Below, one piece after another: positions 25,296 through 43,122 of a DNA stretch of 64,000 nucleotides (position 1 is its first letter; each line of letters starts with the position of its first letter). The stretch is taken from positions 1-64,000 of the forward strand of contig NZ_ASGZ01000070.1 in the NCBI RefSeq assembly GCF_000495475.1, written 5' to 3'. The notes under the pieces were generated by a model. That model did not search any database and was not told the origin of the DNA. It saw only the letters and a program-made list of their open reading frames with translations. Made by a program: the position numbers and the translations under genes. This stretch comes from Candidatus Halobonum tyrrellensis G22. GTDB taxonomy: Archaea > Halobacteriota > Halobacteria > Halobacteriales > Haloferacaceae.

Positions 25296-25760
25296 TTACT
25301 CTTCAGACATCCCCGAGAGATAGACTTCGACTGCTTCCACGAAGTCTACGTATCGGTCGAGACTCGTCTGGAGCGCATCGTATACGAGATCGTCGTTGAC
25401 GATCGGACCGTACGAGTGAGACAGCACGTCGCGGAATCCAGTCGCTTCTCGTAATCGCTCGGCCACATCCGCCGAGATGATTCCCTCGTTCTCCGGTTCT
25501 CTGATCTTCTCTTTCCGACGGTCGGGTGCAGCATCACGCTCCTGTTTGCAGATCTCTTCGACGATATCGAGTGTCGCTTCGGCCAGCTTCTCGAACTTCC
25601 GCTTGACTGCGTTCCGCAGGTCGTAGTTCTCGGCGGCGGTGTACTCGGAGCGACTTAGCTGTTGATCGTCACGAAGCCGCGCGACGTTCTGCTCGATATC
25701 CTCGACGGCATCCGCGATTCGATTCGCCCGATCGGGCGGTATCCCACTACCGGGAGCCAT
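25296..25760 (-). CDS. hepT: HepT-like HEPN toxin
   Basis: A 154-residue all-helical HEPN (DUF86/HepT) protein. The RNase motif R-X4-H-X-Y is intact: Arg110, His115 and Tyr117 in RDVLSHSYG. HepT proteins cleave RNA and are held in check by the cognate MntA nucleotidyltransferase, which adenylylates the motif Tyr. The MntA-like gene lies 38 bp upstream on the same strand, so this is a two-gene toxin-antitoxin unit placed next to parABS, typical of plasmid maintenance. Confidence 0.9.
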   Translation of the reverse strand: MAPGSGIPPDRANRIADAVEDIEQNVARLRDDQQLSRSEYTAAENYDLRNAVKRKFEKLAEATLDIVEEICKQERDAAPDRRKEKIREPENEGIISADVAERLREATGFRDVLSHSYGPIVNDDLVYDALQTSLDRYVDFVEAVEVYLSGMSEE

Positions 25761-25798
25761 TGCTACTCCAGAGACGACGGGAGGCCACCTGAGCCATC

Positions 25799-26236
25799 CT
25801 ACTGTCCCTCACGAAGCCGATTCGCGGCAGCCGCAACCCGTTCGTGTGCGTCAGCGACCGTCGACGCTTCGCCAGCCAGATCACGCTCCAGTCGCTCTCG
25901 CTGGGCGTCGGAGCCGACGAGTACTACCCCGTGGTCGAACGCCGCTCGCGCGAACGCAGGTGACATTGAGTGGATATCGACGACATCGACGGACCGAGAG
26001 ACTGCATCGTCGACGGCGGCCGTGAGTTCGAGGTACACCTGACTGTAGCCGTCGTCGGTGGGACGAAGCGACTCGAACTCGACGGCGAGGTCGAGGGCAC
26101 TCGTGTCGCTCAGCGTTTCGCGACCGGCCGACCCGAAGAGCATGGCGAACGAGACGGGATGCTCGGCGAGGACACGCTCCAACTGCTCACGAACGGCGTC
26201 ATCGAGGCGTGTTTCAGGTCGTTCGTCGCGGCTCAT
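25799..26236 (-). CDS. mntA: MntA-like nucleotidyltransferase antitoxin, altered active site
   Basis: A 145-residue minimal nucleotidyltransferase. The GS motif is present (FGSAGRE, residues 34-40), but the following D-X-D reads A-L-D (Ala47, Asp49; Ala codon at 26096-26098) where the family has Asp at both places. The third acidic position (VDVVDIHS) is present. It is the first gene of the HepT/MntA pair. Family members adenylylate HepT; with one metal ligand missing this one may neutralise only by binding, or be inactive. Confidence 0.88.
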   Translation of the reverse strand: MSRDERPETRLDDAVREQLERVLAEHPVSFAMLFGSAGRETLSDTSALDLAVEFESLRPTDDGYSQVYLELTAAVDDAVSRSVDVVDIHSMSPAFARAAFDHGVVLVGSDAQRERLERDLAGEASTVADAHERVAAAANRLREGQ

Positions 26237-26447: not shown

Positions 26448-27272
26448 TCAGGAAAGAGTGATTTCCGAGGTCGACGACGACATTGTGAGTTCTGCCTGAC
26501 GCTTGTACGTCTCGAAAACACCGGTTGCCCACTCGTATACCTCACTCTGGGTAGTTTCGATGAGGGCTCGCGGTTGTTCGCCATCGGCAGCGATGATCTG
26601 CACGTAGTCGTCAAGGACTCCGACGGACAGCGGAAGTTCGGTGGATGCCTGGTAGACGTCGAACCGCCCTGTGGCGACCATCCCCTCGAAAAGCGTCGTG
26701 TACTCTTCGTTGGTCTGAATAGTCTCCATGACGCTTGGTGCAACGACGAGTTCACACGCTCCCTCACGATCGACGATCGATTCGTGTGCGACTTCCGTCG
26801 CGTGAAGGCCGGTATACGGCAGGAGGAAATGACCTTCGTCTAACTCTCGAATCCGTTCAACGTGATGGTTGATGACGGCGTAAGGGTTACCGGGTTCGGC
26901 AATAACGACTGTTGCGTCGTCGAGAAGTCCATAGTCGAAGTCCAGTGCATCCTCGTCCACCCACCGAAGGAACGGGTTGAGCCGGATCCACTGTTCGGCA
27001 GTACTCGTGAACTCCTCGAAGCTCTCCATGATACCCGCCCCGAGTGGGGTGAGTTGGTAGCCTCCGTCGCTGTGCTCAACGAGGTCGACCGCCTGTAACT
27101 CCCGAATACCACGATCGACCGTCGACCGGGAACACTCGAGTTCTGCAACGAGGGTTCGCTTGTCTCTCGACCCCTCTGAGAGAAAGGACAGGAACGACGT
27201 CCGCTGGACGACGATATTAATTAGTTCCTCAGTCGTGTCATCTAGTTGTATGGTTGGCCGATAGGAAACCAA
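26448..27272 (-). CDS. FilR1-type HTH regulator, left flank of tubulin island
   Basis: About 274 residues. An N-terminal winged HTH (KRTLVAELECSRSTVDRGIRELQAVDLVEH) is followed by a sensor domain of the methanogenesis-regulator FilR1 middle type (about residues 100-255; YAVINHHVERI, CELVVAPSVMETIQ). The start is TTG 27272; no better codon aligns with the paralogue, which begins at the equivalent of residue 9. The protein is clearly homologous to the one at 38440 over its full length. It is transcribed away from the tubulin/GTPase block, with that paralogue mirroring it on the other side. Confidence 0.88.
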   Translation of the reverse strand: MVSYRPTIQLDDTTEELINIVVQRTSFLSFLSEGSRDKRTLVAELECSRSTVDRGIRELQAVDLVEHSDGGYQLTPLGAGIMESFEEFTSTAEQWIRLNPFLRWVDEDALDFDYGLLDDATVVIAEPGNPYAVINHHVERIRELDEGHFLLPYTGLHATEVAHESIVDREGACELVVAPSVMETIQTNEEYTTLFEGMVATGRFDVYQASTELPLSVGVLDDYVQIIAADGEQPRALIETTQSEVYEWATGVFETYKRQAELTMSSSTSEITLS

Positions 27273-27763: not shown

Positions 27764-27789
27764 ATTCCCATGCGCAAAAGCATGGGAAT
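27764..27789 (+). ncRNA. Strong hairpin resembling an IS200/IS605 end
   Basis: ATTCCCATGC (27764-27773), loop GCAAAA, GCATGGGAAT (27780-27789): a perfect 10-bp stem. It is preceded by CGTGAATGAAGA and followed by CAGACTGGCTG. It looks like the subterminal right-end hairpin of haloarchaeal IS200/IS605 elements, which is also the 3' part of their TnpB guide RNA. No tnpA or tnpB is nearby, so it would be a solo end. This identification is from memory of such ends and is tentative. Confidence 0.4.
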
Positions 27790-27911: not shown

Positions 27912-30900
27912 ATGAATCTTCCAGATCAGATCTTCACCATTGGTGGCGCGGGCAAAGACATCGGTATCGAACTACTTGAGTCGGAGTGGCTTCTCAGAGA
28001 TATCCTCAAGCCTCGCCCAGAGCCCGAATCGATCACGGTCACGATCATCGACACGTCCTCGGAAGAGAAAAACTCTGACTTGGAACGGATTCGCCAGATC
28101 CGGAGCAAGCGGGACAAACTGAAAGCGGAGCTTCGCGATACCTCTCAGGGACGGGTCGGAGACGTCGACATTCGGTACAAACTGGTCACGGAAAACATCA
28201 TGCTCAACAGCCGGATCGACCTGACCGGTGACGATGTCGTTCCTCGCATCACTTCCGGAAACGGAATGCGGAGAGGGGACTGGTGGTTGGAAGACAGCCA
28301 CATCGAAGAGAACCTCAACTTCGCGAAAGGTGCTGTTAGAAAGCGAGGGTTGGGGAAAGCGATGTTCTACAAAGCGTACGCCGAAGACGACGAGTTGGCG
28401 ACGATGATCGACATCCCAAGCAAGGGAGAGGTTGCGGTCATTGCTGGCCTAGGTGGAGGGACCGGATCAGGAGTTTTCGGTGACGTAGCACATGAACTCG
28501 CGGAGAAAATGCCGACAGCGGATATTACTCTCTTCGGAGTGTTGCCGAATCACACAGAAGGACTCAGAGAGAATGCGAACGCGTTCGCAGCACTCTCAGA
28601 ACTAGAACGGCTCAGCCTCGAGGGCGAGGAAATCTTCAAAGACCGGATCGTGATGCCGATCGATCCAACCGGCTTCGATGGAAAGCGCGGTAATCGGGTC
28701 GAATCTGACCAGCTATTGGAGGAGTTTGACGAAGCAGCAGTCTATCTCATCGCTGCCTATTACAACAACCAAGGGATGGAGGACGTGTTCGAAGGGTCTC
28801 CTCAGTTTGCTCCGTTCACGATCGGGATCCCACAGGTACTCCGGTACAACGTTGAGGCGATCCAACAAGCCCGAGCCGACTTTCAGGAGATCCTCGATCA
28901 AAAGTCGAAGGCACTCGAAGCGGAGAGCGACATCTACGAAGAAGTAGAGTTGTTTCTTGAGCGGCACTACGACCTGAATGAGACTGGGCTTCGGGGTGAA
29001 GAGGAAACTGACGTCCAAGACCGATTAGCAGTCATAGAGTCGCTTCTCACATACGACCTCTTCGACGAACTAGACTACGAATCAGTTGAGATTTTTCGGG
29101 AAGTACTCAACGATGCCAAATCAGAAACCGAAGACGTCGAGGATCAAATTGAGATCATCAGTGGATCACTCCGAGCCGGTGTTGCTACCCCACGGGGAGA
29201 TACGAACTACGCCGACAACGTTGACGCCCACCTCGCAGAAATCCTGAAGCAGGACCTCGCGTCGCTCGCACGTCGAAAACAGCTTCTTGACTGGAAAAGC
29301 GCAATCGGGAATAACCGAATTCGGCGTACTGTGGAGCATCTCGTTGGTGCAGAGGAGGGAGGAACGAGTGCCGGTGGGACGATCCGACGGCTCGAAGCCG
29401 ATCTCGAAGACGCTGAGGAGAGACGCGAGAGAACGAGCGAGGAACTGCAATCGACGACGCATGAACTTGAGCAACTACGCGATGAGCAAGCCGAGCAGAT
29501 CGAGTCGGAGGTTACCCGGTGGCATCACGATATCGAAGCGGAGCTTGAACAACTCCAGGCAATCGATGTCGCACGGGTTGAACAGCAGCTCGCACAACTC
29601 GAAACTGCTCTTTCGGGGTTCATGGGCGAAGTCACCAACGCAGAATCGAAAGAGGAGGTCAGCAACATCAGCAGCAGTGAGATCACCGATCACCTCGACG
29701 AAATCGAGCGAATGGTCGAGCGGTTCGGTCTCCGTATCGACGAAGAAAAACAGGATATCAATCGCTCACTCTCCGAACTCAAGAACGCTCGTGAGGCGTT
29801 TCTCACTCTCAATCAAGAGGAGAGCACGATTGAGAGGATCACACCCTGGAAGTCGACGACCGAAGAAACACGACAGGATGCCAATAAGACATACCGGATG
29901 GCTTCGAACCGGCTCGACGACGCTGGCGTCTTTACCGTCGGTCCGCCAAGCGACACGTTCACCGCCGAACTTGAGTTCAGCGTCGCCCCAATCGTCAGAG
30001 ACGTCGACGAACAGCGTCAAGAGCTACAACAAGCGATCGTCGGCGGTCTCCGTGAGAAACTTGATGATTCCCCGTCCGAACAGAATCTCGATGACCTTCG
30101 GCGAGAGTTAACGAGTTCCGAGATCGATGTAGAAGCTTGCTCTGCAATTGTCCGCCAGATGTTCGAACGCGAACTCGAGGGCACCGACGATCTCGAAAGT
30201 CGACGAGTGACGCTTCAAGAACGTCTCGAGACAGTCGACGAAGAGATCGATCTCTATGAGGCGACAATCGATCTGTTCGAGGCGGTCAGCAATCGTCGTC
30301 GGACTCTAGAAGAGTATGAAACGTCGTTCCACAAACAGCTCGACGAATTTGGCGATGAAACAGGTGGGTCGGTCGCTTCGGGATCCGATGACTACGTGTT
30401 CGTCAAGAGCATCCAGCCAGAACAGGTATTTCAGGCGACTGGGAGCGAGACGCTCGCTGAAACGGGCTTGTTGACCGGAGCCGGAGAGCGACACCGTGTC
30501 CGCGATGCGCTTGAGGAGTTGGCGAACAACACGCTTGACCGGAAATACACGGGGTTGCAGCGCCGTAAATTGAGTCAGAATGGGCGGCGATACGAGGGGA
30601 TGCGAGTCCGCGTGGCGGTCATGAGCCAAGCGATTGATCAAATCAAGGGAGACGACATCAACCTCAAGTCGACGTACCGCGAGGCGTTCGATCTCGAAGG
30701 AAGCCCGACGCGGCAACGATACAGTGCGTGGAATCCGGAGCTGGGCAACGACTGGGATATCGGATTAGGGGTGTTCATCGATGGGGTCTTCCTCGATAAT
30801 ATCCGAAAGGTAGTTCAGGCAGATGGATACGCAGCTGGGTATGCAGAGTGGGCCAATGCGCAGGATGTTGATATCCGGATTCACCACAGTCTCTGGCTCG

Positions 30901-31130
30901 ATAAGGGTCGGTACGTCTACCGGAACGGAACGCTGAACGTCGAAGCGGCAGAGAACGTCGAATTCTTCCTCCAAGACGAAAGCAGCGTCGTCAACCAACT
31001 CCTTGAAGAGTACTCGGATACCGTCGTCTTCGGTGTCGATGCGGTCGACGAGAGTGCGGACCCTGCTGCCGATAAGAGAGGAGACCGCACAGCCGAGCCA
31101 GCGGCTGAAACAGAGGAGGAAGGCAAATGA
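27912..31130 (+). CDS. Large tubulin-like NTPase with coiled coil
   Basis: A 1072-residue protein. Residues 5-330 look like a tubulin-superfamily GTPase domain of the Tubulin_2 type: an N-terminal glycine loop IGGAGKDIGIE (10-20) and the signature GLGGGTGSG (179-187). Helices with many Glu/Gln heptads fill about 480-860 (LEADLEDAEERRERTSEEL; DEQRQELQQAI), a long coiled coil. A C-terminal globular part (about 900-1045; WNPELGNDWDIGLG) ends in an acidic tail. It has no membrane segment. The next gene starts inside its stop codon, so it is coupled to a membrane GTPase. It is much longer than FtsZ or CetZ. I infer a membrane-recruited, GTP-driven scaffold; whether it polymerises is unknown. Confidence 0.85.
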   Translation: MNLPDQIFTIGGAGKDIGIELLESEWLLRDILKPRPEPESITVTIIDTSSEEKNSDLERIRQIRSKRDKLKAELRDTSQGRVGDVDIRYKLVTENIMLNSRIDLTGDDVVPRITSGNGMRRGDWWLEDSHIEENLNFAKGAVRKRGLGKAMFYKAYAEDDELATMIDIPSKGEVAVIAGLGGGTGSGVFGDVAHELAEKMPTADITLFGVLPNHTEGLRENANAFAALSELERLSLEGEEIFKDRIVMPIDPTGFDGKRGNRVESDQLLEEFDEAAVYLIAAYYNNQGMEDVFEGSPQFAPFTIGIPQVLRYNVEAIQQARADFQEILDQKSKALEAESDIYEEVELFLERHYDLNETGLRGEEETDVQDRLAVIESLLTYDLFDELDYESVEIFREVLNDAKSETEDVEDQIEIISGSLRAGVATPRGDTNYADNVDAHLAEILKQDLASLARRKQLLDWKSAIGNNRIRRTVEHLVGAEEGGTSAGGTIRRLEADLEDAEERRERTSEELQSTTHELEQLRDEQAEQIESEVTRWHHDIEAELEQLQAIDVARVEQQLAQLETALSGFMGEVTNAESKEEVSNISSSEITDHLDEIERMVERFGLRIDEEKQDINRSLSELKNAREAFLTLNQEESTIERITPWKSTTEETRQDANKTYRMASNRLDDAGVFTVGPPSDTFTAELEFSVAPIVRDVDEQRQELQQAIVGGLREKLDDSPSEQNLDDLRRELTSSEIDVEACSAIVRQMFERELEGTDDLESRRVTLQERLETVDEEIDLYEATIDLFEAVSNRRRTLEEYETSFHKQLDEFGDETGGSVASGSDDYVFVKSIQPEQVFQATGSETLAETGLLTGAGERHRVRDALEELANNTLDRKYTGLQRRKLSQNGRRYEGMRVRVAVMSQAIDQIKGDDINLKSTYREAFDLEGSPTRQRYSAWNPELGNDWDIGLGVFIDGVFLDNIRKVVQADGYAAGYAEWANAQDVDIRIHHSLWLDKGRYVYRNGTLNVEAAENVEFFLQDESSVVNQLLEEYSDTVVFGVDAVDESADPAADKRGDRTAEPAAETEEEGK

Positions 31131-32572
31131 GCGGTCCGGTTAGGTTCGTGATGCGGAATCGAGAGAAGTTCCTGCTCGTCGGCTATGCGATTGCAATCCT
31201 CATTTTCGCGAGCCTACTTTCACCGATGCTTGGGCAAGCATGGCAGCGAGCCGAGCTAACTCGTGCGCTGTTTCAAACCCGTCTGTTGATCGGTCTCTCG
31301 CTGGAGATTATTGCGGTCGTCTTAGTGAGTCTGTTCTTCGGCCTGCTGGGTCTGATGATCCTCGATACGAAAAAGCGGTTTCAGGGTGTGTTGCTGTTTG
31401 TCGGTAGTATCGTCGGACTTCTTGCTCTGTCGTCGATGGGACTACTGCTTCCAAACATTGACCTCTTCGGGAACATACAGTGGGTCGCCGCTGGACTCGT
31501 GGTCGGTGGCGTAGTTGGCGGTGGTCGTTCAATTCTCGACGTCAATTCGAACGGTCCCCGTGAGTTTCGTTCCGCATCTCGAGCAGTCTATTTCTTGCTC
31601 AGTGCGCTAATGGTGGTCGGATTCCTCGAATACCACCTCGAGTATCCCTTCCCACTCGAGATCGCGCGTAATGAGGTCGTGATGGAGCCGGTTGCTTCCG
31701 AATTCGCCGTCGTCGGGGAGAGCAGTGAACTCCTGATGAACGCGGTACTCGTGGGCGCGTTCATCGTGACGACGAAGCGGTTCGTCCAGTACGACGCAGA
31801 GCGGGACTTCTTCGTGTTGGGGCCAACTGGATCGGGGAAGAGTCTCTTCTTGGTCGGGGCGTATCTAGAAGCACTCGAGCGCTTCACCCAAGATGACTCG
31901 GAGACGCCACTGAACCCGAGTCAGGATCTGATCAATCTCGTCGGTGCTTTAGATCGGCAAGGTGACGGCTGGTTCGTCGAGGCAACGCGTGCACAGGAAC
32001 TGGAGGACCTGCACTTTCAGTACGTCCACGGAAACGTCTTCCCGAAGAACGTCGAAGTGTCGAGTCTCGACTACGCTGGCGAGTGGCTTGAGGACATTCC
32101 GGATATCATCATGGGGACGGAAGATGCGGACGACCCGCCGAACACACTCAAACGCGTCGCTGACAACGTCCGTCAAGCGGATACACTGATCCTCCTGATC
32201 GACTCGAATCGCTGGCTCGACGATGAACCACTTGAGATCGAACCGTATTTCGATATCGTGCAGGCCACCGAAGAGAAGAACGTCATCCTCATCGCGACGA
32301 AAGCCGACGTGCTGGCCGAACAGTTCCGCTCCGAGCGTGGGCTCGATGCTCAGCAGTACTTCCCCGACTTCAAAGAGTACGTCAACGAACAGCTAGGGAC
32401 AAATCAGACCGTCCAGTCGCTCCTTGCACAGGCGGGAAGCGCATCAGAAATCCACCCTGTCTACTATCAGACAACGGTCGATGATAGTGGCGAGCGCGTA
32501 CCAATGCGTGCGAATGGCACTGTTACGACCGTCGGATTCGACGAACTACTCGACATGGTCGGGGAGAACTAA
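31127..32572 (+). CDS. Polytopic membrane GTPase
   Basis: A 481-residue protein. Five or six hydrophobic helices fill residues 15-220. A P-loop GTPase-like domain follows: G1 GPTGSGKS (about 233-240), G3 in SSLDYAGEW (DYAG, about 313), G4 TKAD (about 391). The domain faces the cytoplasm if the N-terminus is inside. It overlaps the tubulin-like gene by four bases with GAGGAGG just upstream and is followed one base later by another membrane protein gene, so the three form an operon. P-loop GTPases beside tubulin-like proteins have been noted in predicted prokaryotic conflict or signalling systems (the double-GTPase groups). Its precise family is not certain. Confidence 0.85.
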   Translation: MSGPVRFVMRNREKFLLVGYAIAILIFASLLSPMLGQAWQRAELTRALFQTRLLIGLSLEIIAVVLVSLFFGLLGLMILDTKKRFQGVLLFVGSIVGLLALSSMGLLLPNIDLFGNIQWVAAGLVVGGVVGGGRSILDVNSNGPREFRSASRAVYFLLSALMVVGFLEYHLEYPFPLEIARNEVVMEPVASEFAVVGESSELLMNAVLVGAFIVTTKRFVQYDAERDFFVLGPTGSGKSLFLVGAYLEALERFTQDDSETPLNPSQDLINLVGALDRQGDGWFVEATRAQELEDLHFQYVHGNVFPKNVEVSSLDYAGEWLEDIPDIIMGTEDADDPPNTLKRVADNVRQADTLILLIDSNRWLDDEPLEIEPYFDIVQATEEKNVILIATKADVLAEQFRSERGLDAQQYFPDFKEYVNEQLGTNQTVQSLLAQAGSASEIHPVYYQTTVDDSGERVPMRANGTVTTVGFDELLDMVGEN

Positions 32573-32573
32573 C

Positions 32574-33602
32574 ATGGCGACAATTACGATCTTCGACTCA
32601 CGGGGCCATCAGCTCGCCGACCCACATGGGGAACGTGACGAAGACATTCGGCGCATGAACCAGTACGGGGTCGTCTGTGAGCTCTACCACGGACAGGTGC
32701 CTAGGCTGACGACGTACTTCCGCGCTCGTGAGTCCGACTCCGGCCGGCTCGAACAGTATTATGCACGCTATCAACCTGACCGTAGCGATCGATCTCCGGC
32801 TGATTTCCCTAGTGGTCATACTAGAGATAGCGTCCCAACCAGCAACTCAGCTGACGATCTGTTCTTAGACCGGTTCCCATCCGGATTTGCGGCTCAGATA
32901 GTCCGGCATGCGGAATCAGAGCATGGCTTGTCGGTCGCTGATTCGACTACTAACGAGAACTTCTTGGGAACCTTACTGGAGATTGGCGGATCACCGAATC
33001 AAGGTAGTTCTGCTGACGAACGGCAACGAGCACGGGAGCTGCTCGCTGACGGAGAGCGGCTCCACTTCGCGACCGAGTCGTACGAGACAGCACTTGGCCT
33101 CATTTCGAGTCTCTTAACAGCGCAAGCGGATCTTACCGCCGCGATCACCGAGGACACCAGTACACTCGATGGCGGGATGTCGGCGTACGATTGCGTGGTT
33201 GAGCCGGGAGGGGAGGAAGGCTTAGAGTCACTCGGCGATACGAAGGGGAAAATGATACCTCCCGAGCCAACCAGGAACGAAGGAACCGGCTTGGGGAACG
33301 ATATATTATCGTCAGCTCAAGGTGAAACAAGTGACGGACATGCGGACATTGCGCGTATTGCTCCGTACCTCGCGGGCGCCTTGGTCGTCGGTGTCGCTAT
33401 TGGTATCTTGATCGGGATGGCGCTCGCAAGTGGCCTTGATAGTGGAAATTTGATCGCCCTCCCAGATATGCCCCATATTCTGGACATCAGTCAGTTGCCC
33501 TCTTTCATCTCAGAAAACGGAACAGAGGCTTCCGGAACGCCGGCTCCGACGTCTCACCCGAATACCACAGCAGGAACAACTACGAATAAATCAACACTCT
33601 AG
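32574..33602 (+). CDS. C-terminally anchored membrane protein, unknown
   Basis: 342 residues from ATG 32574; an open frame upstream overlaps the GTPase gene and is not used. A soluble N-terminal domain (about residues 1-255) starts MATITIFDSRGHQLADP, with mixed beta strands and helices. One membrane helix (about 262-288; LAGALVVGVAIGILIGMALA) follows, then a Thr/Ser-rich tail of about 50 residues that should lie outside the cell. I do not recognise the fold. Third gene of the tubulin/GTPase operon, so it is probably the link to the extracellular components encoded next. Confidence 0.75.
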   Translation: MATITIFDSRGHQLADPHGERDEDIRRMNQYGVVCELYHGQVPRLTTYFRARESDSGRLEQYYARYQPDRSDRSPADFPSGHTRDSVPTSNSADDLFLDRFPSGFAAQIVRHAESEHGLSVADSTTNENFLGTLLEIGGSPNQGSSADERQRARELLADGERLHFATESYETALGLISSLLTAQADLTAAITEDTSTLDGGMSAYDCVVEPGGEEGLESLGDTKGKMIPPEPTRNEGTGLGNDILSSAQGETSDGHADIARIAPYLAGALVVGVAIGILIGMALASGLDSGNLIALPDMPHILDISQLPSFISENGTEASGTPAPTSHPNTTAGTTTNKSTL

Positions 33603-33694
33603 CCTCGGACCCTAGATTCCGCTACTAGGTTAATGATGAATAATCGAACGGTAAGAGACGTTTGTACCGGGTTCTGATATCTGCGCGATAGTTA

Positions 33695-33700
33695 TTTATA
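33695..33700 (+). promoter_or_regulatory. TATA-like box for second half of the block
   Basis: TTTATA 69 bases before the 33769 start, inside a 166-bp AT-rich gap. It suggests the 930-aa gene and those after it have a separate transcript. Confidence 0.4.
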
Positions 33701-33768
33701 CGAGAGTGTAGCTGCTACCGACCTACCCAGACAGTAACGTAAACTCTGGATCTTCTGTTGATCGCATT

Positions 33769-36561
33769 ATGAAACACCGGTCTGACCATATTCGCCCGGA
33801 ACGATTAAATCATTCTTCGGCTACGATGGCTCAAGAGGTCTTAGAGCCGCCGTTCGTTGAAGAGTTCGAATCAAGCCCAAGCGGCTGGACGATCGGACTT
33901 CATTCGCGGGCTGACGAGAGAGTAACGAAAGGCGAGGGTGCATGGTCCTCCGAGTACAGTGGAAGCATAAAACTGCAGGTGGATGGAGGGCCGAACCATA
34001 TCGGGGTCTACCATCCGGTCGGTGATTTAACAGAAGGGACCGAAATCACAGTTAACTACAAATCTCCGAATCTTCAAGGTGAGCCAGGCGGTCCTCGGAT
34101 TACTCTTCACCCGCCAGACGACGATTCGTTTACGATCGATATGGATAGTGGAGGGGGAGGATCGGGAACGGCGGATACGGATGGGGTGCTTCGCGGAACG
34201 CTTCCGGAAAGCGTCCCTGCTGGGACAGAGGTCGAAGCACGTCTCGGAGTCTGGCCGGGAGAGATCACAGTCTACATCACGAGGGTGGTAGTGGGGAGTT
34301 CCGAGTCGTCTTCTACGACCGAGGAAGCTGACACGGCCACCGCGACGGCGCCACCGGCGTTCGAAGACAGATTCGAAGATGGAAACCTTGACGGCTGGAG
34401 TACCGTGTGGGGGTCACGAAGCCAGTACTGTGAAATCCTCAATGAGTGGGACACGACGACTACTAACGCAATCTCGGGTGAGCGATCGCTCTACCTGCAT
34501 TCGAACTGTGATAACAACGCCCTGGCGACGGAGGATCGAATAATAGATCTATCGAGTGAGTTCGAGATCTCATACAAGTATTATTTCGAGGAGGAAAACA
34601 GCCGGGGCGGGATCGCTATGCTTCTCGATTCGGATCGAAACGGAAGTAAACAAGGAGAGCGAGTTGAGGGAGAACACTGGTATCCGCTAGCTGGGCCCCA
34701 TCGGAGGCCAGATAAGGATAATCCTCACTTCAACATCTTGGGAGTGAGTCAGCCGTTCGAGATAAAACCAGAACCTGGAACCGTTCATATGGTCCGCGTA
34801 GAGAAGTCCGGCGAACGGATTCACGGGTACCACGATGGTGATCAGTACATCGACGCTTCACTCTCGGATGTCGAGGTACCGCTGGATCGGCAGTATCGGC
34901 TCCTCTTGCAATCGAGTGGGGCATATGGGGCCGAGTCAGAGATGTGGTTCGACGACATCCGGCTTGGACAACCTGGAGGGACGACAACTGAGTCTTCATC
35001 CCCGTCCGATACTGGACAAGGCCAATCGGCTCCAGTGGGGGAGCTACAGTTTGTAGCCGACATCAAGCGGGTAGTCTCCTGTGGGCCGACCTGTCGTGAC
35101 GTCACGCTCTCGTTGACGAACGCGGGGGACGTTGAGGCTACTGACGTCACCGTCGACGTGACCGTCCGCAGCGGTGGGACAGCTATCTGGGCTGGATCCG
35201 AATCAATCGGTAGCTTAGCAGTTGGAGAGTCATATGAGACACAGCAGCGGGTCGACTTCGGTTACGAAGACGTTGCCCGGATCGTCGGCGACGACCGAAC
35301 CGTTCTGGTGCAGGCCATTATTCGAACTAATCGTGGGAATCTCATCAGTGAGCAAGTGTATGACCTTAGCTCAGGTTCGGTTCGATCTCCCTCTCTTCCG
35401 CCACTTAGTGAAGGATCACACACCGAGGTTGAGGTCGCTGGAGAGACGTACTATCTCATCGCTGATCTTCCGAACCAGCCCGTCGATCGAGAAGTGGTAA
35501 CCACGACGGACTACGAACTAATCTCACCGGAGCGAGCGAAAGCAGTCATTGCGACCGACTTCTGGCCACAACAGCGGTTTGCCGACTATGACTGGGAGCA
35601 ACGAATTCAGAAAACGCGCGATCTCCGAGAGCGGTCACTTGACTTCTATCGGAGCGGTAGCTATCTAGATGTTGGATGGGATATTACTGAAGCACTCCTC
35701 TTTACGAGTGCTCATCTACCGGTCAAGGGGGCGATCTTAGATGCAATGAGTGACGTCGCAAATACGTACGTTGAACAGACCAACGAACCGTGGAAGGAGA
35801 GTTTCGTGAAGCTCACTGCTAGCTTACAGAATACAAAGACGTTGCATGGTCTGACTAATCAGGTTGCTTGGTACGAGGATATCGACACGAGCGGGCCGCT
35901 TCAGACACTCATTGACTTCGGGCTCTTGTGCAACGACGTGGTCCAGACGGGGACATCGTTGACACAGGCTTGGAGCCGCGCAATGACGGCAATCGGGACG
36001 GGTGGTGCACTCGGTCAATCGCTCCTCCAAACTAGTGTGAAGGATGCGTTGGGTGAGGCGAGGGACATCTTCGTTGGACTTGCTATTTCTATGGCCGTCG
36101 ACTCGTTTGACGGGCCAGTCAAATTGGCAACCGATGCACACGGGCTTGCACATGCGTGGACCACAGCCCGAATGCCTGTGCTCCGCCGGCTTCGAGATTT
36201 GGATGCCACTCTGGCCCAACGAGAGCATTCGATGGGGACCGGCCACGAATACTACTGGAACCTTCTCATGGACTTCCAAATGAAGGCGCTCGCGTTCGAA
36301 GGCTCTCGGAAATACTGGCAGGCGATATCCGACTCCAATCTCGGCTTCGTCTGGGACGTCGTCGGGAACGCCCAACCTCGTGCTGCCAAGTATGGTCAGT
36401 GGGCTGAGACGGCCAATGAGATGGCAAAAACGGTTGCTCAGATTTATGGAGCGACCGAGACGGCGATCGGTCAACGCGCATCAAACTCGCTCAACGCTGC
36501 AGTAACACAAGAGCGGCCAGCACAGTCATTTGCTCATTTGTCTAACGGAGGGACTCAGTAA
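33769..36561 (+). CDS. 930-residue multi-beta-domain protein
   Basis: Two lectin/jelly-roll-like modules occupy about residues 25-175 (FVEEFESSPSGWTIG) and 195-400 (FEDRFEDGNLDGWSTVWGS, ending YRLLLQSSG and MWFDDIRLG), separated by Ser/Thr linkers. A CARDB-like Ig domain (about 425-540; CRDVTLSLTNAGDVEATDV) follows, then a largely helical C-terminal domain (about 590-910). Such domains normally work outside the cell, yet no signal peptide is visible at ATG 33769 or at the in-frame ATG 33826. It ends in an overlap with the Tat-substrate gene. It could be exported with that partner or be cytoplasmic. Function unknown. Confidence 0.72.
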   Translation: MKHRSDHIRPERLNHSSATMAQEVLEPPFVEEFESSPSGWTIGLHSRADERVTKGEGAWSSEYSGSIKLQVDGGPNHIGVYHPVGDLTEGTEITVNYKSPNLQGEPGGPRITLHPPDDDSFTIDMDSGGGGSGTADTDGVLRGTLPESVPAGTEVEARLGVWPGEITVYITRVVVGSSESSSTTEEADTATATAPPAFEDRFEDGNLDGWSTVWGSRSQYCEILNEWDTTTTNAISGERSLYLHSNCDNNALATEDRIIDLSSEFEISYKYYFEEENSRGGIAMLLDSDRNGSKQGERVEGEHWYPLAGPHRRPDKDNPHFNILGVSQPFEIKPEPGTVHMVRVEKSGERIHGYHDGDQYIDASLSDVEVPLDRQYRLLLQSSGAYGAESEMWFDDIRLGQPGGTTTESSSPSDTGQGQSAPVGELQFVADIKRVVSCGPTCRDVTLSLTNAGDVEATDVTVDVTVRSGGTAIWAGSESIGSLAVGESYETQQRVDFGYEDVARIVGDDRTVLVQAIIRTNRGNLISEQVYDLSSGSVRSPSLPPLSEGSHTEVEVAGETYYLIADLPNQPVDREVVTTTDYELISPERAKAVIATDFWPQQRFADYDWEQRIQKTRDLRERSLDFYRSGSYLDVGWDITEALLFTSAHLPVKGAILDAMSDVANTYVEQTNEPWKESFVKLTASLQNTKTLHGLTNQVAWYEDIDTSGPLQTLIDFGLLCNDVVQTGTSLTQAWSRAMTAIGTGGALGQSLLQTSVKDALGEARDIFVGLAISMAVDSFDGPVKLATDAHGLAHAWTTARMPVLRRLRDLDATLAQREHSMGTGHEYYWNLLMDFQMKALAFEGSRKYWQAISDSNLGFVWDVVGNAQPRAAKYGQWAETANEMAKTVAQIYGATETAIGQRASNSLNAAVTQERPAQSFAHLSNGGTQ

Positions 36562-37136
36562 TGAAACGCCGGAGTCTCGCCAAGCTACTTGGCATTGGTC
36601 TCGTCGGGGGCGGGGGGGCCAGTGCGGCCGTCTACACGGACGCGATCAACGTTGATCCCAATGATGTATCGCAGCTTGACGGAGACGCTACTTCAGCGAC
36701 TATCACCATCGGGACAGTGGACACAACGCCTACTCCGTCCGACTTCGATACGAGTCGAGGGAAAATCGACCAGCCACCGGCGCCGTTTCGGTACGACTAC
36801 GACCCGCTTAACGAGACCGTCTCGGATGGGGAGTATATCCAAACGGTCCGTGCACAGCCAGCTACTGGGGTTACTGGTGATCGAATTCAACTTGAGGTTA
36901 CTGCTGAGACCAACTCAGAGACGTACGCTGCACAGCTCAGACTTGCACTTGCAGTTGGGACAGCGCTAACACGCGAAACGACAGTTGACGGTAAGGTAGT
37001 TGATTTTTCTGGAGGATCCGTCGGCAGACATGTAGCGTTGGTCGGTGAGCAACCAGAGCTCTCTGCTCAAATTTTCATAGCTCGAGCTACTTCACAGCAG
37101 GGAGTGGAATCCCTTGTCGACAATTGGTCGGAATAA
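36561..37136 (+). CDS. Small Tat-exported protein
   Basis: 191 residues with a textbook twin-arginine signal: KRRSLAKLLGIGLVGGGGAS in the first 22 residues. The mature part is acidic and beta-rich (TSATITIGTVDTTPTP, RIQLEVTAETNS), with a single domain of about 110 residues. There is no lipobox, so it is either secreted or held by the residual hydrophobic stretch. Its ATG overlaps the last base of the upstream 930-aa gene, so the two are coupled and probably form one extracellular complex. Confidence 0.82.
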   Translation: MKRRSLAKLLGIGLVGGGGASAAVYTDAINVDPNDVSQLDGDATSATITIGTVDTTPTPSDFDTSRGKIDQPPAPFRYDYDPLNETVSDGEYIQTVRAQPATGVTGDRIQLEVTAETNSETYAAQLRLALAVGTALTRETTVDGKVVDFSGGSVGRHVALVGEQPELSAQIFIARATSQQGVESLVDNWSE

Positions 37137-37375
37137 CCCTCTAGAGAGCTGGCGGCTACTGTAAATATGTAGTTGCGATATAGTGACTGTTCGGTACCGT
37201 GAGTACGATAATTCATATTGGTATAGTCACTCCCTCGGTGATTCCTCAGACGATAACGCAAATTTGGGTACAACTAGTAATTTGGCATGGCAATCCGACT
37301 CACGGAGAGGGTGGTCAATAGAAGAGTAGCTCAGGACTTAGGAACCCCAATCCAGTCTAAGGGTTCTTTACAACT

Positions 37376-37744
37376 ATGAGACTAACAAAAATACTCGGGG
37401 AGTTCAACGGAGTCGTAATTGGAACAGTCATCGGCCTCGGAGTATACATAAAGCTGGTATCTGGAGATTTTACCCTCGTTGGCTTGATTACAGCCATGAT
37501 AGATGTTGGCGGGTATGCGTTAGGAGCATCGACGTCTACATTAGTCACGTCAAGCGTTACCAAGTATCCACTAGGTCCAGTTTTGGCTGGCACCCTGGGT
37601 GGGGTGATTGGTGCAATCCTTTCACTGTATCTCCCTCTCGTAACTACTCTCCCCCTTTCATCAGATCTCCTTGAACAGGTAGTAACAGGACTGATTGCTG
37701 GTGGGGTAATCGGTATCCTCACACGGTTCCTCCCCGGATTGTAA
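37376..37744 (+). CDS. Glycine-rich membrane protein
   Basis: 122 residues with three or four hydrophobic helices (VVIGTVIGLGVYIKLV; LITAMIDVGGYALGA; GPVLAGTLGGVIGAILSLYLP; VTGLIAGGVIGILTRFLPGL). GxxxG-type spacing suggests helix packing or oligomerisation. It reads with the tubulin block but after a 240-bp AT-rich gap, so membership is likely rather than certain. Its stop codon lies 10 bases from the edge of the dead IS6 transposase, so the original C-terminus could have been changed by that insertion. Confidence 0.6.
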   Translation: MRLTKILGEFNGVVIGTVIGLGVYIKLVSGDFTLVGLITAMIDVGGYALGASTSTLVTSSVTKYPLGPVLAGTLGGVIGAILSLYLPLVTTLPLSSDLLEQVVTGLIAGGVIGILTRFLPGL

Positions 37745-38439: not shown

Positions 38440-39240
38440 ATGCAACTGAATGACAAGACGGAGAAACTGATTAAGTTGGTTATCAAACGAGACTCATTTC
38501 TCACATGTCTTAGAGAGAACCAAAAGGACAAGCGAACACTCGTTGCGGAACTAGATTACTCCCGATCGACTGTTGATCGTGGGATCCGCGATCTGGAAGC
38601 AGCCGGTCTCGTCCAGTATAAAAACGGTGGCTATCAGCTAACCTCACTTGGAGCTAGCATTATGGATGGCTTCGTTGAGTTTGTAGAGGCCTCGGAACAG
38701 CGGGTTCGGCTCGATCCATTCCTTCGGTGGATTGATGAAGACGCACTCGATCTAGACTATTCCTATCTTGCTGATGCAGAAATCATTGCTGCTGACCCGG
38801 GCGACCCGTACGCAGTAATCAACTATCACGTTAGTCGAATCGAATCAATGTACAATGGTCGATTCCTTCTCCCAATTATTGGCCTTCACGGAACCGAAGT
38901 CATATACGAGCGGATCATCAACCATGGAGCAACGTGTGAATTAGTTGTTGAGCCGGACGTCATGAATACGATCCAAAGCAAAGATGAGTACCTGGAGTAC
39001 TTCGAAGAGATGATCGCGACTGACCGTCTTACTATCTACCGGACGGAGACCAATCTATCACCGCCTGTGGGCATAATCAACGATTGCGTCCAACTCCTCG
39101 CCGTTGACGGCGACCTCCCCCGCACGCTGATTGAAACCTCACATAGTCAGGTCTACGAATGGGCGACGGATACCTTTGAGGCCTACAAGCAGCAGGCAGA
39201 GTTGGTGATGGCCTCAGATATGGGAATCACTACCTCCTAA
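38440..39240 (+). CDS. FilR1-type HTH regulator, right flank of tubulin island
   Basis: 266 residues, a full-length paralogue of the protein encoded at 26448 (shared KRTLVAEL, SRSTVDRGIR, GGYQLT, RLDPFLRWIDEDALD, CELVVEPDVMNTIQS, LIETSHSQVYEWAT). Winged HTH in the first 75 residues, then the FilR1 middle-type sensor. The ATG at 38440 gives the clean family N-terminus. It is transcribed away from the tubulin/GTPase block, mirroring its paralogue. Codon use is more AT-rich than in the conjugation genes. Ligand unknown; it probably represses or activates genes in this island. Confidence 0.9.
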   Translation: MQLNDKTEKLIKLVIKRDSFLTCLRENQKDKRTLVAELDYSRSTVDRGIRDLEAAGLVQYKNGGYQLTSLGASIMDGFVEFVEASEQRVRLDPFLRWIDEDALDLDYSYLADAEIIAADPGDPYAVINYHVSRIESMYNGRFLLPIIGLHGTEVIYERIINHGATCELVVEPDVMNTIQSKDEYLEYFEEMIATDRLTIYRTETNLSPPVGIINDCVQLLAVDGDLPRTLIETSHSQVYEWATDTFEAYKQQAELVMASDMGITTS

Positions 39241-42048: not shown

Positions 42049-43122
42049 GTGTCCGCCAAAGCGTGCCACGTAGTGGGGCACGAACAGGTCGCGTTCCTCG
42101 CCGAGTCGGTCAACCGACAGCGAGTCTTACAGCACCTCCGCGAGACTGGCGACGCGATCAGCATCAGCGAATTCGCGACCGAGGACTCCGTCTCACGCGC
42201 GACCGCCCATCGCGCGCTTACCAGCATGGCTGACCTAAACTGGCTCAGCCAAGGCGACGACGGGAGATATACGCTCACCGCGACCGGCCATCTCGTCGTC
42301 CGTGCCCACTCCGCGTTTCTTGAGACCGCTGACCAGGAACTCCTCTCGTTTCTCGGCGGCTCATCCTACCGAATGGACTTACTTGAGACGCTCACCGTCC
42401 GGGACGCCCAGGTCAAATTCCAAGAGATGCTCGTTGAGTCGGAGGCGTCGAAGGCGACTGTCTCCCGGTGTATGGACGACTTCCTCGAACGGGACTTGAT
42501 CGATCGCCCTGATCACGGCCGCTACCGCCTCACCGAGGAGGGAAAACAGGTGAGCAACGCGTTTCGAACCCTCCAAAACACTGTGGAGTGGGCGACCGAG
42601 AACGCTCCGGTGGTCAACGCACTCGGGTCGATCGGGGCCGACCTTCCGATTCAGGCCCTCGGCTCCAATACCATCACGACCATCACGGCGTCCCCTGCTG
42701 ATCCCGACCGGGCGATCCTCGGCTTTACAGACCGCATCAAAGCGGCCGACCCCAACGCACTCTATGGAGTCATGCCCGCGGCGAGTCACAGCCTCATCAC
42801 GCTCTACAAAGGGCTCGCGAAAGCGAACACACAGATCGAACTCGTCGTCGACGACGCTGTCGTCTCCGCGGCGGAATCATCGTATCCAGACACGCTCAGC
42901 CTTGTGGAGCGCTGTGACGAACTGGACTTGTACGAGTACCCTTCGCGGCTCGACTGTGGTGTCGCGTTCTACAACGACCAAGCGATCATCGGCGTGTATC
43001 ACGGGGATACCGGCCACCTGTGGGCGCACCTCGTGAGTCGTCACGACGAGTTTACCGCGTGGGTCTGGGACTACTTCGATAGCCACCGGAAGCAAGCGAC
43101 CAAGTTCACAGCTCGTTCGTAA
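42049..43122 (+). CDS. Double winged-helix FilR1-like regulator
   Basis: 357 residues starting at GTG 42049, with TTCTATAACGTG around the start. There are two winged HTH units (about residues 10-85 and 105-180; SRATAHRALTSM and SKATVSRCMDDF are the recognition helices), then a FilR1-type sensor domain (about 200-350; ELVVDDAVVSAAESS, HLWAHLVSRHDEFTAWVWD). Third of four related regulators in the window; the duplicated HTH is unusual for the group. Not in an operon. It may govern the conjugation genes that follow, but nothing proves it. Confidence 0.88.
   Translation: MSAKACHVVGHEQVAFLAESVNRQRVLQHLRETGDAISISEFATEDSVSRATAHRALTSMADLNWLSQGDDGRYTLTATGHLVVRAHSAFLETADQELLSFLGGSSYRMDLLETLTVRDAQVKFQEMLVESEASKATVSRCMDDFLERDLIDRPDHGRYRLTEEGKQVSNAFRTLQNTVEWATENAPVVNALGSIGADLPIQALGSNTITTITASPADPDRAILGFTDRIKAADPNALYGVMPAASHSLITLYKGLAKANTQIELVVDDAVVSAAESSYPDTLSLVERCDELDLYEYPSRLDCGVAFYNDQAIIGVYHGDTGHLWAHLVSRHDEFTAWVWDYFDSHRKQATKFTARS

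Follow-up and report, generated by a model that had tools for sequence, protein, structure and literature searches.

A haloarchaeal FtsZl1-type tubulin locus with a conserved three-gene core and a separable two-gene module

Six open reading frames on one strand, here called g1 to g6, occupy positions 27912–37744 of the 64,000-nucleotide stretch of Candidatus Halobonum tyrrellensis G22 DNA that was analysed (the window), and they raise the question of whether a tubulin-like protein, a membrane GTPase and several outside-type proteins form one system, and what such a system might do. An initial annotation had read the six genes as a single block in which several neighbors overlap by 1–4 bases. 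All six were found as open reading frames of the lengths given there; however, overlap is confined to two of the five junctions (4 bases at g1/g2 and 1 base at g4/g5), whereas the other three are gapped, by 1 base at g2/g3, 166 bases at g3/g4 and 239 bases at g5/g6. Rather than a single unit, the six genes make up a core (g1–g3), a separable pair (g4–g5) and an unplaced gene (g6).

The first gene, g1 (27912–31130, + strand), encodes a protein of 1072 amino acids that was assigned to the FtsZl1/Tubulin_2 type of tubulin-like NTPases by Pfam, alignment and profile. It matches the Pfam families Tubulin_2 (E 2.2e-13) and Tubulin PF00091 (E 5.9e-8), both beyond the curated cut-offs, and a profile built from g1 and 25 of its relatives retrieves FtsZ, TubZ and RepX from the PDB with a best E of 7e-6; the tubulin-like character proposed at the outset is upheld. 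Judged from its sequence, g1 is a genuine tubulin-superfamily NTPase of the type named FtsZl1 by Makarova and Koonin (2010). The N-terminal nucleotide-binding region carries LGGGTGSG at residues 180–187 and is followed by a long central coiled-coil-like region and by a conserved C-terminal block (residues ~950–1005); in an alignment of 26 relatives, the glycines of G181–G187 are invariant, as are D962, N963, H992 and R1004. Residues ~380–740 yield weak coiled-coil-type matches only (SMC, tape measure, IFT57), and both a PADLOC match to LmuB (E 2e-4) and the PHROG tape-measure matches of g1 were discarded as coiled-coil similarity. Of the 378 pattern matches that the tubulin alignment produced on viral contigs, none was a relative.

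With the haloarchaeal CetZ/FtsZ proteins, g1 shares the tubulin superfamily and the host group; however, profile–profile comparison with haloarchaeal FtsZ (hhalign) aligns it over only ~70 residues, 160–231. CetZ/FtsZ proteins are ~400 amino acids long and have no long coiled coil, and we know of no membrane GTPase and adaptor linked to them. As the homology to FtsZ stops near residue 231 in the profile comparison, in which the polymerization-linked T7 loop was not located, filament formation by g1 is uncertain.

The second gene, g2 (31127–32572, + strand), encodes a polytopic membrane GTPase of 481 amino acids, as had been annotated, with roughly six hydrophobic stretches and the motifs GPTGSGKS (P-loop), DYAGE and TKAD. 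Its match to DO-GTPase2 falls below the cut-off (E 0.0059), and 3 of 26 g2 relatives match that family at E ≤ 0.01. The link to the tubulin was assessed in 171 genomes of the host's GTDB family: full or partial g1 relatives (E below 1e-20) occur in 41 of them, and a g2 relative is present in every one of the 41 (Fisher P 2.6e-35, relatedness ignored), always on the strand of the tubulin gene and downstream of it, at no more than 2.4 kb and in most cases at less than 300 bases. Four further genomes contain a g2 match without a g1 relative. Genes for g2-type membrane GTPases are seen at C2:65078–66337 of genome G017 and at C1:2824056–2825537 of genome G020, with no tubulin of the g1 family in either genome.

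The third gene, g3 (32574–33602, + strand), encodes a protein of 342 amino acids that was characterized by profile recovery, alignment and Pfam matches of ectodomains as a single-pass adaptor, consistent with the membrane anchor annotated earlier. It comprises a conserved N-terminal domain of ~220 residues and one strong hydrophobic stretch, a clear transmembrane segment, at about residue 266. Among 38 neighborhoods of tubulin loci, g3 follows g2 in most, and an iterated profile of the g3 N-terminal domain recovers a relative at nearly all of the 38, some of the lower-ranked matches being outside-type repeats of other proteins. In these relatives, the ~220 residues that precede the transmembrane segment are conserved and everything after it is variable, with ectodomains matched by Pfam as CarboxypepD_reg, PEGA, Big_1 (Ig-like) and PQQ propeller; the outside tail of the block's own g3 is short. 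The genes g1–g2–g3 constitute a conserved core in fixed order, which recurs in order on plasmid pMETEV01 of Methanohalobium evestigatum (38, 37 and 32% identity, respectively), where the g3 counterpart is annotated as a PGF-pre-PGF domain protein. At other loci, the slot after g3 is filled by Tat-signal PQQ propellers or by kinase-like plus CarboxypepD_reg proteins, all of them transmembrane. Three accessory proteins (L047, 10588–12909; L033, 15862–18087; L036, 11325–13607) share an architecture of PQQ propeller, membrane stretch and helical cytoplasmic part; this last part matches HHH_5 in L033 and weakly resembles the MIT domain in L047 (E 7e-6), a match that is below the cut-off and was not relied on.

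Behind the core, g4 (33769–36561, + strand) encodes 930 amino acids, in which variable N-terminal modules of beta type precede g4C, a helical C-terminal domain that is conserved (residues ~540–912). A TATA-like sequence, TTATTTATA, was noted by sequence inspection at 33692–33700 (+ strand), ~69 bases upstream of g4, and suggests a putative promoter of its own. The adjoining g5 (36561–37136, + strand), a partner of g4C, encodes a small protein of 191 amino acids with a Tat-like RR signal, and the RR motif is found in all five g5 sequences. For g4, a signal peptide is absent in every upstream frame checked, frameshifted ones included; therefore, Tat export, which had been claimed for the exported partners together, is supported for g5 only.

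A search with g4 through 394 genomes of the order shows the protein to be modular. Residues 15–173 match a Tat-signal protein of locus L093, residues 180–400 match a protein of locus L092 with a Tat lipoprotein-like signal, and residues 400–530 match a common haloarchaeal domain, while g4C (residues 540–912) belongs to a rare family present in 6 of the 394 genomes. The N-terminal partners of g4C all differ, comprising a PQQ propeller, GLUG-like and propeller-like repeats and LamG-like domains (named by eye, not by Pfam). Of the other five genomes, four (G161, G458, G350 and G388) have a g5 relative directly after g4C. One of these, G388, holds at locus L091 the order tubulin–GTPase–g3–g4–g5, the same as in the block, with tubulins that are only 26% identical; G350 and G458 have a tubulin gene distant from the g4 relative, and G161 and G452 have no tubulin at all. 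Thus, with the tubulin missing or far away in other g4C genomes, the pair occurs on its own, and since two of the six g4C genomes are devoid of any tubulin, it can work without the core. The g4–g5 pair, in which g4 carries exchangeable modules of binding type, is rare and separately mobile, and in two unrelated systems it sits immediately after the core. The initial annotation had named homologues that never co-occur in other genomes as the finding that would count against it; the ordered g1–g2–g3 set recurs in many genomes, and the g1–g5 order recurs in L091.

BLAST found no relatives of g4, g5 or g6 among the 38 tubulin loci, and phage and plasmid searches with g4 returned no relatives. Searches of solved structures with the g3 and g4C profiles gave chance-level matches only, and AlphaFold models, built for g4C from a single sequence and for g1 residues 1–430 from two, had mean pLDDT values of 40 and 33, respectively, were meaningless and are not interpreted. 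The last gene, g6 (37376–37744, + strand), encodes a Gly-rich polytopic membrane protein of 122 amino acids with four hydrophobic stretches; with the 239-base gap before it and no relative at any of the 38 tubulin loci, its membership of the system is unsupported. Of the six-gene block first proposed, the g1–g3 core and, as a separable pair, g4–g5 are retained, whereas g6 is not.

The closest described class is FtsZl1, a protein of ~1050 amino acids that has a long central coiled coil and a mostly helical C-terminal region and is accompanied by archaeal membrane-associated GTPases, by vWA proteins in most but not all cases, and by protein kinases frequently but not universally, and for which a role in membrane remodeling has been predicted (Makarova and Koonin 2010, PMC2875224). 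FtsZl1 has no recognizable T6-H7, and its alignment with FtsZ is lost past the T4-H5 region (PMC2875224). Similarly, g1 has a Tubulin_2 domain with the GGGTG(S/T)G loop, a comparable length and a linked membrane GTPase of archaeal form, and its T6-H7-T7 region cannot be aligned to FtsZ either. In contrast, the block has no linked vWA, protein kinase or OmpA-type protein and adds the g4–g5 module; the two vWA matches of the genome sit on other contigs, and no Pkinase match was obtained anywhere in the genome at E 0.001. The adaptor g3 may be one of the unnamed FtsZl1-associated families (A1–A2) of the same authors. The class itself has been known since 2010 and is uncharacterized, with no experimental report on any FtsZl1 protein found in the literature searched; the novelty lies in defining a three-gene core that includes an adaptor and in the g4C–g5 module, which recurs. 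FtsZl1 proteins rank among the most diverged tubulins, and since a minimal core of fixed order with a conserved adaptor is now defined in a group with genetically tractable haloarchaea among its members, filament formation and a role at the membrane become directly testable; the exchangeable outside modules suggest a possible attachment of a cytoskeletal protein to the archaeal cell surface.

The reading favored here over defense, tentatively and at somewhat short of an even chance, is that the block is a haloarchaeal FtsZl1 machine in which a cytoplasmic polymer is coupled across the membrane to exchangeable surface modules. In such a machine, g1 would assemble under the membrane in a nucleotide-dependent manner, g2 would set the place or time of its attachment, and g3 would carry the state of g1 through the membrane, either to the g3 ectodomain or to exported partners; these would bind surface or S-layer/glycan ligands, and the outcome would be a locally organized or remodeled patch of cell surface. 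Co-export by Tat is a known behavior of some two-protein complexes, and it is suggested for g4 because this signal-less protein adjoins g5, on which it might ride out of the cell. The fuller version, in which a dedicated GTPase and adaptor would join a tubulin-family cytoskeleton, mechanically or allosterically, to extracellular modules that can be exchanged, one of them g5, exported by Tat with g4 as its passenger, is improbable in its entirety. Against the favored model stand the loss of FtsZ homology near residue 231, the weak match of g2 to known GTPase families, the missing signal peptide of g4, the two g4C genomes devoid of any tubulin and the short outside tail of g3. The earlier idea of nucleotide switches inside that control a complex outside keeps its structural part, namely the pairing of a Tubulin_2-type NTPase with a membrane GTPase and their connection through the membrane to domains of outside type.

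Alternatively, the block could be an antiviral conflict system of the DO-GTPase/tubulin type, with a constant NTPase switch and polymer and with variable parts that sense or attack invaders. Gene sets that join tubulins to DO-GTPases, transmembrane proteins, vWA and variable components are read as conflict systems (Kaur et al. 2020, PMC7159879), so that the association named in the initial annotation is a published one, and the GAP1-N2 tubulin theme of that study, whose tubulin has a C-terminal coiled coil, is described in firmicutes and actinobacteria. The block resembles this theme in its tubulin with a coiled-coil-like region beside a transmembrane GTPase, in the DYAGE motif of g2, which is akin to a Walker B glutamate, and in its variable outside-type components; the weak DO-GTPase2 match, a HEPN-MNT toxin-antitoxin pair close by, and a patchy distribution in which the core is constant and the modules vary point the same way. 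However, the DO-GTPase2 match is below the cut-off, no GAP1, EAD, vWA or effector domain was recognized in the block, no GAP1 match was found in g3, g4 or their families, and the variable parts are binding domains of outside type, not nucleases or pores. With no credible PADLOC model match (apart from coiled-coil similarity), no viral relatives in the searches with the tubulin alignment and with g4, and no known effector domain, the defensive role first envisaged is not borne out, and the conflict reading is considered unlikely.

A transmembrane sensing or signaling complex, in which ligands would be sensed by the variable ectodomains and the signal handed on by the GTPase and tubulin with no surface remodeling, would agree with the kinase-like plus ectodomain proteins in the post-g3 slot of relatives and with the FilR1/HVO_A0261-type regulators that flank the block. 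Yet this genome has no kinase match, a large coiled-coil tubulin would be an unusual signal relay, and the conservation of the core does not extend to the flanking regulators; such a complex is judged quite unlikely.

The contig of 132,857 bases has a GC content of ~60% in the stretches read, as against ~70–71% elsewhere in the genome, and the block itself is at 53–55%. Because of this contrast, and because genes for an integrase (17924), Orc1/Cdc6 (22539) and ParA (24067) lie on the contig, it is likely a low-GC plasmid-like replicon. Plasmid segregation of the TubZ kind, to which the upstream Orc1/Cdc6 and ParA genes, the GC content and the presence of relatives on plasmids could be credited, is very improbable, for the core also lies on contigs of ~3 Mb, its partners are membrane proteins that bear domains of outside type and a ParA is already there. 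Of the hallmarks of TubZ segregation (a centromere, a DNA-binding adaptor and filament treadmilling), no adaptor was recognized.

Further observations concern the surroundings of the block and of related loci. Adjoining HepT-like and nucleotidyltransferase genes at 25296–26236 form the HEPN-MNT pair, beside ParA and Orc1/Cdc6. Three HVO_A0261/FilR1-type regulators are encoded at 26448–27272 (− strand), 38440–39240 (+ strand) and 42049–43122 (+ strand), of which the two flanking the block are transcribed away from it; at locus L048, a relative is encoded downstream of the tubulin genes, at a distance of ~5 kb. On the Halorubrum plasmid p117 (L074), Hsp70-family and vWA genes neighbor a tubulin-like gene; they lie on the other strand and are separated from it by a transposase. 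An Rfam search gave no match. About 120 bases upstream of the tubulin gene, at 27764–27789, there is a perfect 10-base hairpin, ATTCCCATGC-GCAAAA-GCATGGGAAT, a possible transposon terminus or regulatory element.
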